This document shows, in pieces, positions 26,333-29,930 of a stretch of DNA of 64,000 nt (positions are counted from its first letter, which is position 1; every line of letters starts with the position of its first letter). The notes below the pieces were generated by a model. The model was not told the DNA's origin, ran no database searches, and was given only the letters and a program-made list of their open reading frames with translations. The position numbers and the translations under genes are program-made. The DNA is from Phycisphaerales bacterium (GTDB lineage: Bacteria > Planctomycetota > Phycisphaerae > SM23-33 > FEN-1343). The stretch lies in contig PMYD01000010.1 of NCBI GenBank assembly GCA_003171335.1, positions 1 through 64,000 of the forward strand, given 5' to 3'.

Positions 26333-26563
26333 ATGAAGAGACAGCAGAACATCCCGGCCATAGAATACGTCCGGAAATCCCTGGCCCGGCGAATCACTCA
26401 GGCCCGTCGCGCAGCGGGGCTGATCCAGGCGGAGCTTGCCCGCCGGGCCGGCATTCGCCCGGAAACCCTGAATCGCCTCGAAAAAGGCAAGACCACGCCC
26501 GCCATCGCCACCGTCATTAAGATTGAGCGGGCTCTGGAAACTGTCCAGACGACGGCTGAGTGA
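26333..26563 (+). CDS. XRE-type helix-turn-helix regulator
   Basis: A 76-residue protein made almost entirely of an HTH_3/Cro-CI domain (ITQARRAAGLIQAELARRAG, then PETLNRLEKGKTTPAIATVIKI). The start is the ATG at 26333; a longer frame overlaps prmC. The size and position, just upstream of a methyltransferase/nuclease pair, resemble restriction-modification controller proteins. However, its GC content is like the host and it sits 16 bp behind prmC, so it may instead belong to the prmC transcript. Confidence 0.8.
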   Translation: MKRQQNIPAIEYVRKSLARRITQARRAAGLIQAELARRAGIRPETLNRLEKGKTTPAIATVIKIERALETVQTTAE

Positions 26564-26670
26564 CGAGCGTTGGCGGCGAGGGTGTTTCACCCCGGGTTTT
26601 CCCCCCGGAAGAGGCAGGAAGAAGTAACCTATTGTTTCCCTGTCCCCTTTGTTTCCTGACGCTTTTGGGC

Positions 26671-26699
26671 TTGACCGATTGACTGCTCTTCAGTACTGT
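26671..26699 (+). promoter_or_regulatory. sigma-70-type promoter before the methyltransferase gene
   Basis: TTGACC at 26671-26676 and TACTGT at 26694-26699 are separated by 17 bp, 27 bp before the ATG at 26727. A terminator-like GC hairpin (CCGGG-TTTTCCC-CCCGG) lies at about 26592-26610, after the XRE gene, which separates the two transcription units. Confidence 0.45.
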
Positions 26700-26726
26700 T
26701 TCTGTTAGGGCTTGGGCCGGTGGCTG

Positions 26727-28847
26727 ATGATCGAAAAAGATTTTGACATTTCGTTTGTCGCAGATCTCGCGCTGCGAGAGAAGCAGATACAGCAAAACTA
26801 CCGCCCAATCATCGCTGTCCATAAGTGGTTTGCTCGACGACCAGGAACACTATTTAGAGGCCTTTTGCTTTCTGAGTTCGCAAGCGAACCCCTTCGCGAC
26901 GTCTTTTATAAAAAAAATGACTTCGCCGGGCTTAGAATAGGCGACCCGTTCATGGGTGGGGGCACTCCTCTCTTAGAAGCAAACCGCGTTGGATGTGATG
27001 TAGTTGGCTTCGACATAAACCCAATGTCCTATTGGATAGTCAAGGAGGAAATTGGGTATTTGGATTTGACTGCATACGACGAGGCGGCAGAATCGCTTAT
27101 TCGGATGCTTGAGCGAGAGATTGGGGATTTGCACCGAACCAGCTGCGTATCCTGTGGAAGCGGAGATGCACTTGTAAAATACTTCCTTTGGGTGAAAGTG
27201 ATTCTCTGCCGTAAGTGTGGTAAGGATGTAGATCTTTTTCCCGGCTATCTTCTGGCGAGCGATTCCCGCCACCCTAAAAATGTTTTTGTTTGCCCATTCT
27301 GCCATCAATTGACGGAAACAGTGGACCGTCATTCACCTGGAACATGCGCCCATTGTGGCAGGCAACTTTCGGTCAGGGGTCCCGCTTCTAAAAAGCACTG
27401 CCAGTGCTCGTATTGCAAGCATGACAATTTATACCCGGAGGGCAAACAACCGCCAAGGCACCGACTGTTTGCTATAGAGTATACCTGCCCGCGTTGCAGG
27501 AGCAGACATGCCGGAAGGTTTTTTAAGGTGCCTGATGCTGATGACTTCAGAAGGTTGAAAGAGACGGAAGAAAGGTGGTGCGGCATCAGACCTCGCTTTG
27601 TCCCAGATGCGAATATTCCATCAGGGGATGAGACCAATCGTCTCCATCGTTGGGGGTATAAGCGGTACAGCGAGATGTTTAACTCACGCCAGCTTTTGGG
27701 TCTAGAGCATTCAGCGCGTTTTATTGCTTCATTGAAGGACGAGCGAGTGCGGGATGCTCTGGCGACAAACCTTTCCGATCTGCTTCGTTATCAGAATATG
27801 TTGTGTCGGTATGACACAATGGCCCTCAAATCACTGGATATTTTTTCGGTGCACGGTTTTCCCGTAGGATTAGTCCAATGCGAATCGAATTTCGTGGGAA
27901 TAAAGGGGGGCGGGAACGTAGGCTGTGTTGGGAGCGGTGGGTGGAGAAATATTCTTGAAAAGTACAGAAAGGCAAAACTTTACTGCGATTTCCCATTTGA
28001 GATCTTTCACCATGGGAGCCAGAAACAAATTCGCCCGATAGTAGGGGAATGGATAGGCGAGCGTCATAACGGCGATCAGACGATTAAGCCACGTCTAGTA
28101 GAATTGCGTTGCGAAGATTCCGCAGTAGCGAGTTTGCCGCCGAATTCACTTGATGCTGTTTTCACGGACCCGCCATATTTTGGCAATGTACAATATGCCG
28201 AACTAATTGATTTCTGCTACGTATGGCTTCGCCTGCTTGTCGGCACCAGATCTGCAGCGTTTCAAAAGGATTCAACAAGGGACGCCGAGGAGTTGACAGT
28301 TAATGAGCAAATGGGTAGGGGGATTAAGCATTTTACAGAAGGTCTTTCTGCCGTCTTTCAGCGTATGGCCGGGGCTTTGAAACCGGGAGCACCGTTCGCT
28401 TTCACATACCACCACAACGCAATAGAGGCCTATTACCCCGTAGCGGTTGCCGTTCTGGATGCTGGGCTAAAATGCTCCGCTGCGTTGCCTTGTCCGGCGG
28501 AAATGGGGGCTTCGATTCATATAAACGGAACCGGATCGTCGATAGTTGACACCGTTTTCGTATGCCGAACTACGGGCAAGATCGCGAGAAATACTATTTT
28601 TTCCTCGCCGGATGGCGTTGCAGCCCTTGTAGAAAAGGATTTAGAGGATTTACGGAGAGGCGGGGTGAAACCATCTAAGGGTGACATTAGATGCATCGCA
28701 TTCGGGCATCTGGTGCGGCTGGCCATATGGCAACTGCACAAAAAATGGCCAAAGGAAGCTTCTACATCAAGCAAACTTTCAACTGTGGCAAATAGCATTC
28801 GGGCGCTTGGCGGTTGGCCGGAGGTGGAAAAGTACATCGGAGGTTGA
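26727..28847 (+). CDS. adenine-type DNA methyltransferase with three inserted zinc ribbons (DUF1156-like)
   Basis: A 706-residue protein. The AdoMet-binding motif I DPFMGGGTPLLEANRVGCDVV is at about residues 73-92, and the catalytic DPPY (VFTDPPYFGNV) at about 481-484, as in DNA N6-adenine or N4-cytosine methylases. Between them lie six CxxC pairs at about 140/143, 161/164, 189/192, 207/210, 227/230 and 254/257, readable as three four-Cys zinc ribbons. The layout resembles DUF1156-type methylases. The ATG at 26727 is preferred over a TTG five codons earlier. Base composition is far more AT-rich than the flanks. The nuclease gene begins 45 bp downstream, so this is probably the modification half of an acquired system. 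Confidence 0.85.
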   Translation: MIEKDFDISFVADLALREKQIQQNYRPIIAVHKWFARRPGTLFRGLLLSEFASEPLRDVFYKKNDFAGLRIGDPFMGGGTPLLEANRVGCDVVGFDINPMSYWIVKEEIGYLDLTAYDEAAESLIRMLEREIGDLHRTSCVSCGSGDALVKYFLWVKVILCRKCGKDVDLFPGYLLASDSRHPKNVFVCPFCHQLTETVDRHSPGTCAHCGRQLSVRGPASKKHCQCSYCKHDNLYPEGKQPPRHRLFAIEYTCPRCRSRHAGRFFKVPDADDFRRLKETEERWCGIRPRFVPDANIPSGDETNRLHRWGYKRYSEMFNSRQLLGLEHSARFIASLKDERVRDALATNLSDLLRYQNMLCRYDTMALKSLDIFSVHGFPVGLVQCESNFVGIKGGGNVGCVGSGGWRNILEKYRKAKLYCDFPFEIFHHGSQKQIRPIVGEWIGERHNGDQTIKPRLVELRCEDSAVASLPPNSLDAVFTDPPYFGNVQYAELIDFCYVWLRLLVGTRSAAFQKDSTRDAEELTVNEQMGRGIKHFTEGLSAVFQRMAGALKPGAPFAFTYHHNAIEAYYPVAVAVLDAGLKCSAALPCPAEMGASIHINGTGSSIVDTVFVCRTTGKIARNTIFSSPDGVAALVEKDLEDLRRGGVKPSKGDIRCIAFGHLVRLAIWQLHKKWPKEASTSSKLSTVANSIRALGGWPEVEKYIGG

Positions 28848-28892
28848 TTTAGCGTGGAGCAGAATGCATTTGCAGATGAGGGAGGAAAGACA

Positions 28893-29930
28893 ATGCCGAA
28901 ATTGCCGTTTGAAGCTTCGTACGAGGAGATTCTTCAGAACCCGCTTGACTATGTTGAAGCAGTTTTCTCTTGCCTGGAGTCCGAGTTCCTGATCATGCCC
29001 AAGGGAGAGGGTTTCATCGATTATCCGGTCTTCGAGCGCGGGTATGAGGCGTTAAAACATGCGACAGGCGCATTCTCGCGATTCGAATCGTCGGCGGTTA
29101 CGGCCGCAGCGATAGACGAACCAATTTCCATTATCGTGCTGCGTACGATGATGGGTTTCACGCCGCCGGAGTGGGCATATCTTACAGGCCAGCGAACTGG
29201 CATTATTGTTTCTCAAGGATTTATACGCTCTTTGGATCGAAGGATTCGCAAGAATCCGGAATTACCTCTCAGGCGCGGGAAGGGCGGCGAGGTGGTTGAT
29301 CGATTGGAGGCCCTGATTCGGACCGCCTGCGAAATACTCTCAGAGGGAGCGCCTGCGGTTGCCAAGAATAGGCTTCACCGATTGGACAAGGCAGACACAA
29401 AAGGAGGGGTCAATAGCATTGCAAGTTTAGCTGGAATCGGGGTTCCTTACGCGATGCTTCTTTACGAGCGGTTTCTCGGGCGTCCATTTGCTGGCCATCG
29501 CGACTCTGTTAGTGAATTGATTGGAGGTTCGCTTGAAGCTTCCATTGAAGAAGTGCTGTCCGGTGCAGGCATAAGTTATAGGAAGACTAAGCGTGCGGAA
29601 CAAATTGCAGGGCTTGATCAGACACCGGATTTCATAGTCCCCGATGAGTTTAGCCCAAGGGTTATGATTGAAGCCAAAATAACGGAGGACGACGGCACGG
29701 CCCGGGATAAAGTCACCCGAATTCAACATCTTGCCGAGCTTAGCGCGGCCCGCCACCCGAACGAATTTGAGGTAATTGCTTGCATTGGCGGCAGGGGTTT
29801 TGGCGTGCGCCGCGAAGATATGAAGAAGATGCTGATTGCCACCCGAGGCAAGGTCTTCACTCTTAAGACTTTCCATCGGATGATCGAATGTACGAGATTG
29901 CGGGAGTTCAAGACAAGGATACTGGAGTAG
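28893..29930 (+). CDS. putative PD-(D/E)XK restriction endonuclease
   Basis: A 345-residue protein with a nuclease-like core at the C terminus: PD at residues 245-246 (QTPDFIVPD) and EAK at 260-262 (VMIEAKI), the spacing expected of PD-(D/E)XK enzymes. GSLEASIEEVLSGAGISYRK just before it looks like the helix that opens such folds. The first 200 residues match nothing I know and may bind DNA. The ATG at 28893 has GGGAGGA at 28880-28886; the GTG at 28854 is less likely. It follows the methyltransferase in the same AT-rich segment, so it is read as the cleaving partner. The biochemical role is inference. Confidence 0.7.
   Translation: MPKLPFEASYEEILQNPLDYVEAVFSCLESEFLIMPKGEGFIDYPVFERGYEALKHATGAFSRFESSAVTAAAIDEPISIIVLRTMMGFTPPEWAYLTGQRTGIIVSQGFIRSLDRRIRKNPELPLRRGKGGEVVDRLEALIRTACEILSEGAPAVAKNRLHRLDKADTKGGVNSIASLAGIGVPYAMLLYERFLGRPFAGHRDSVSELIGGSLEASIEEVLSGAGISYRKTKRAEQIAGLDQTPDFIVPDEFSPRVMIEAKITEDDGTARDKVTRIQHLAELSAARHPNEFEVIACIGGRGFGVRREDMKKMLIATRGKVFTLKTFHRMIECTRLREFKTRILE

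Follow-up and report, generated by a model that had tools for sequence, protein, structure and literature searches.

DUF1156-type methylases are components of large defence systems whose workings are poorly understood. These methylases belong to BREX-related systems, and the related BR methylases are reported to have a 4C zinc finger, in some cases two, in the insert that forms their TRD (PMC12839542). Our literature searches returned nothing useful on BstEII or zinc-ribbon type II methylases, and HVO_A0006 of Haloferax (PMC4389544), considered as a parallel, was set aside as a type IIG fragment. Here we describe a locus in which a methylase gene of related type, M, is followed by a single small nuclease gene, R, within a 64,000-nucleotide stretch of DNA (the window).

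We consider it likely that M and R form a horizontally mobile two-gene type II-like restriction–modification (RM) system. M would methylate adenine in a short, probably palindromic target, which it would contact by means of an arm stapled by zinc and located at the TRD position. R, as a PD-(D/E)XK enzyme that probably dimerises and uses Mg2+, would cut the same target when it is unmethylated. In this defence role, incoming phage or plasmid DNA would be destroyed, and loss of the cassette would harm the host.

The locus and its upstream neighbour

Both genes are intact and lie on the plus strand. M (26727..28847, 706 aa, ATG) was assigned as a DUF1156/COG1743-type N6-adenine DNA methyltransferase from family-profile matches and homologue identity, and R (28893..29930, 345 aa, ATG) is type II restriction endonuclease-like. 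The AT-rich island of the original prediction is borne out: the pair sits in a lower-GC patch of the window (GC 0.49–0.53 versus about 0.64), and GC3 is 0.49 in M and 0.55 in R, compared with 0.83 in the upstream prmC. The gene starts given earlier, 26712 for M and 28854 for R, were corrected to the ATG codons at 26727 and 28893 on the basis of homologues and of a GGAGG Shine-Dalgarno sequence before R.

M extends for about 30 aa more in most homologues, and its end lies within R in a different frame, an overlap of about 20 nt that suggests translational coupling. The window M is without this C-terminal tail, and M and R share one frame, one TGA and 45 bp apart. This in-frame arrangement probably arose by chance after the tail was lost. 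The TGA is the sole stop between the two genes (28845–28893), and reading through it would yield an M–R fusion.

A small XRE gene (26333–26563; HTH_3, 5.8e-14) precedes M. The original prediction combined the three genes into a controller, methylase and nuclease module, of which the M–R part is strongly supported by strict pairing in distant genomes, by the type II fold of R, and by a homologue of R beside another methylase; the controller part is rejected. That XRE regulates the pair as a type II controller would suit its position on the same strand, 163 bp upstream, and an HTH of the right size, but we hold this to be highly improbable. No XRE homologue was found at the other M–R loci tested, and the homologous loci have no conserved C gene upstream of R or M. 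The composition of XRE is host-like (GC 0.62, GC3 0.73), and the PADLOC controller models match it weakly (0.008). Its best relatives (61–77%) come from genomes that belong to the same order or class as the window, all of them without the cassette. One is directly beside a ParE toxin, and others form the C-terminal portion of longer proteins that resemble antitoxins; in comparison with order-level relatives, XRE corresponds to that C-terminal portion. In the window, XRE has no recognised toxin gene next to it. XRE is best interpreted as an antitoxin or remnant belonging to the host lineage; it lies outside the module, and the cassette holds no dedicated controller gene.

The methylase and its zinc arm

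The best family matches of M are NF042963 DUF1156_antiphage (3.5e-25), HmaB (4.8e-23), and PglXI (1e-20), and its homologues are 58–65% identical over nearly the full length. M falls below the cut-offs of both PF06634 (DUF1156; 16.5 versus 24 bits) and, by a wide margin, NF042963 (88 versus 1000 bits). By sequence, M is a separate branch related to the DUF1156/COG1743 methyltransferases. A fold search of the PDB with the M model returned a generic AdoMet-methyltransferase core and nothing else. Along the protein, an HKWFARRPG block is followed by AdoMet motif I (DPFMGGGT, residues 73–80, 26943..26966, placed by homologue alignment), the zinc region (residues 140–257, 27144..27497), and the catalytic TDPPY (residues 480–484, 28164..28178), which is invariant in the M alignment. 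The DUF1156/COG1743 order of motif I, zinc insert, and (T)DPPY is therefore present in M and agrees, in the alignment, with DUF1156-annotated plasmid proteins. The TDPPY motif points to m6A as the modification, and the presence of a single methylase suggests a palindromic, adenine-containing target.

These affinities raise the question of whether the pair derives, as a fragment or in minimal form, from a multi-gene system of the BREX, Hma, or "BR" type, with ATPases and helicases. The top family matches of M all lie in that direction, as does the published placement of DUF1156 methylases, and distant plasmid relatives (25–31% identity) occur in two settings, one of which is DUF499/helicase operons; in the other, they stand beside a small protein bearing the motif YPDF...GYEIKGL. 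However, the close M–R pairs (the starred group, 16 rows) have a constant two-gene make-up with no ATPase, PglZ, or helicase gene in common, and no PglZ, BrxC, DUF499 ATPase, or helicase was recognised next to the pair, either in the window or in close homologues. We therefore regard derivation from such a system as unlikely and favor the two-gene RM system.

Between motif I and TDPPY, in the target-recognition slot, M carries 12 cysteines arranged as six CxxC knuckles, K1–K6 (C140/143, C161/164, C189/192, C207/210, C227/230, and C254/257). Ten of the 12 are invariant among eight homologues, with the remaining two missing in L008 only. Although this cysteine content matches the three four-Cys zinc ribbons originally proposed, three ribbons in tandem are disfavored, and nested sites fit better. 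When the knuckles were scored across 36 methylases, nested pairs agreed in 32 (K1–K6), 34 (K2–K5), and 34 (K3–K4) sequences, compared with 20 (K1–K2) and 22 (K5–K6) for pairs expected of tandem ribbons. Agreement is also 32 for K2–K3 and K2–K4, because these knuckles rarely vary, and the argument therefore rests on K1–K6 and on the patterns of L021/L023 and L093. Within the close family, K1 and K6 are jointly lost and K2–K5 kept in L008 and in the clade of L011, L031, L057, and L064. In L021 and L023, K3 and K4 alone remain, and in L093, K2 and K5 alone. Exceptions to the nested pattern are L036, L062, L032, and the haloarchaeal K1, which has altered spacing. A tree-based sign test of knuckle co-loss was not significant, as the starred pairs that were independent were too few.

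In the M model (pTM 0.75), an unbroken strand (residues 148–160) lies between K1 and K2 and a second strand (residues 244–253) just before K6. A strand of 13 residues is unable to bring K1 back to K2, which disfavors the pairing of these two knuckles, and two antiparallel strands would place K1 beside K6 and K2 beside K5. From nested co-loss and this modeled strand layout, we infer a single antiparallel arm with up to three nested zincs (1+6, 2+5, and 3+4), probably all three in M. The outer zinc site is dispensable. Given the position of the arm in the TRD slot, it is plausible that it reads the DNA target.

The nuclease and its relatives

R returns nothing significant in Pfam, NCBIfam, or PADLOC and has no meaningful sequence match in the PDB. 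Because it matches no profile library searched, it is likely to escape annotation pipelines. The PD-(D/E)XK core called in the original prediction is present nonetheless, as D246, E260, and K262 (PDF...IEAK, 29628..29678, + strand), invariant in all close homologues. D246 and E260 are also invariant across all 16 sequences of the wider R alignment, and K262 is kept in a Microbacterium homologue (ECK); two more distant sequences, L019 and L020, have ESS.

A Foldseek search with the R model likewise returned a nuclease fold. The sole match below 0.001 is BstEII with DNA (E 3.8e-4, prob 1.00), followed by PspGI and EcoT38I, with Bse634I further down, all of them type II restriction endonucleases (REases). 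The model itself is moderate (pLDDT 71, pTM 0.53; TM-score to BstEII of 0.31), with low confidence around residues 156–205. The N-terminal domain (residues 1–199, 28893..29489, + strand) is all-helical in the AF2 model and is conserved in both the close and the wider alignments; it probably serves in recognition or dimerisation.

A chain of sequence similarity also links R to the DpnII/BanI families. The R profile finds L019 and L020 (5.7e-7 and 2.8e-4), which match those families, and hhalign aligns them with R at 92% and 6.8e-07, with 31% identity over the catalytic domain. The R neighbors in L019 and L020 are other methylase ORFs. On a plasmid of Microbacterium sp. BDGP8, the R homologue (29.5%) abuts and follows a beta-class N6_N4_Mtase with TSPPY. 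The occurrence of R homologues beside unrelated methylases indicates that the role of R is that of a restriction partner, not of an accessory specific to M. The Microbacterium homologue is annotated as a hypothetical protein, and a Shedu immune nuclease family annotation lies near it (L013:9274-9669), forming a small plasmid defence cluster.

R could instead be a modification-dependent (type IV-like) nuclease, or one that cuts only in the presence of M's methylation, and its uncharacterised N-terminal domain leaves room for such a function. We judge this very unlikely, as Pfam detects no known modified-base reader domain in R, a nuclease attacking its partner's mark would kill the host, and the nearest folds are those of ordinary type II enzymes. 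A type II REase that spares DNA methylated by M is the reading we retain.

Pairing, transfer, and relation to known systems

The pairing proposed at this locus recurs in other genomes: M is directly upstream of R in all 18 loci with a close R, which come from several phyla and from viral contigs. A scan of genome contigs for R gave nine loci in genomes of other phyla, annotated as Deltaproteobacteria/Syntrophobacterales, Elusimicrobia, Verrucomicrobia, Fermentibacteria, WOR-3, and Blastocatellia, every one with M immediately upstream and with best segments 56–65% identical. Among 392 sampled genomes of the window's phylum, there were five strong R matches, its own included, each with M adjacent, and R is absent from all of 99 nearer relatives. 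Identity of about 60% across phyla, together with absence from close relatives, shows that the pair has been transferred horizontally. As the flanking genes are unrelated and differ between loci, the unit consists of M and R only. No clean empty site was found for comparison; in two genomes of the same family, a different gene follows prmC.

Four viral contigs hold the pair (L011, L012, L057, and L064), and the GenBank phage records searched gave no R. In L012, an integrase-like ORF, read by eye, is directly upstream of the pair. M occurs without R twice, in L032 and in L060, a 48.7-kb viral contig in which the solitary M (L060:5878-9755, 49% identity) has an integrase-like ORF downstream. A solitary M would fit a protective methylase, and that of L060 could possibly provide phage self-protection. 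A few homologues are broken, with R frame-shifted in L008 and L010 and truncated in L009, and M frame-shifted in L003; some of these are perhaps MAG errors. In L003, from a Syntrophobacterales MAG, M appears frame-shifted (L003:7823-10029) beside an intact R, a combination that would be lethal if true and is thus perhaps an assembly error.

Overall, the M and R genes are adjacent and co-inherited, R combines intact catalytic residues with a fold known from REases, and no helicase or ATPase gene that could supply an ATP-dependent motor is common to the M–R loci. An m6A-type methylase combined with a single PD-(D/E)XK nuclease, and no motor, amounts to type II logic. The claim that the architecture is unlike classic type II systems thus holds for M, which is of DUF1156/COG1743 type, but not for R, whose fold is that of an ordinary type II enzyme.

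The pair may, more tentatively, belong to an unnamed motor-free RM class in which DUF1156-type methylases, with a target-recognition arm formed by a single antiparallel stem and held by one to three nested zincs, are combined with interchangeable, unrelated nucleases. If true, such a class would form a bridge between simple type II systems and the multi-gene systems of BREX-like type that share the methylase class. A two-gene version with a stand-alone nuclease would offer a tractable route to understanding how methylases of this class, with their zinc arm, choose DNA, and R may supply a new restriction specificity.

Comparable arrangements are distant plasmid pairs (L021, L023, L024, L051, L092, and L033) of a related M of ~700–820 aa and a small PD...ExK-like protein. 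They differ from the M–R pair in that the small protein is of another family and usually lies upstream of M, and their M mostly has fewer zinc sites. The 250–275 aa YPDF...GYEIKGL protein recurs with a DUF1156-like methylase in the first five of these, mostly on plasmids; it has no convincing Pfam match where tested and was assigned as a nuclease by eye. In L033 (L033:650-3822), an XRE domain is fused to the N terminus of a distant M that is convergent with the gene for a small protein with a PD...ExK-like motif, possibly a self-regulating variant.

Among characterised nucleases, BstEII (PDB 9ibq) and the PspGI/Bse634I group share the PD-(D/E)XK core with R and match its fold best, over nearly the whole length, but with no detectable sequence similarity and a low overall TM-score. 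DpnII/MboI and BanI (PF04556 and PF24447) share blocks of the catalytic half (DFIxP...NPxxIxE and ...GxGWxVRxxDLxRM...VFT) through L019 and L020, whereas R passes neither Pfam model and has EAK where L019 and L020 have ESS. HmaB, PglXI/BrxXI, and DUF1156_antiphage resemble M in the N-terminal HKWFARRPG, motif I, a zinc insert after motif I/II, and TDPPY. Compared with the DUF1156/COG1743 methylases, however, M, at 706 aa, has a single small nuclease partner instead of ATPase and helicase genes, and it has up to three zinc sites versus the one or two of the BR methylases (PMC12839542). The M–R cassette is ordinary in its logic and unusual in its methylase class.
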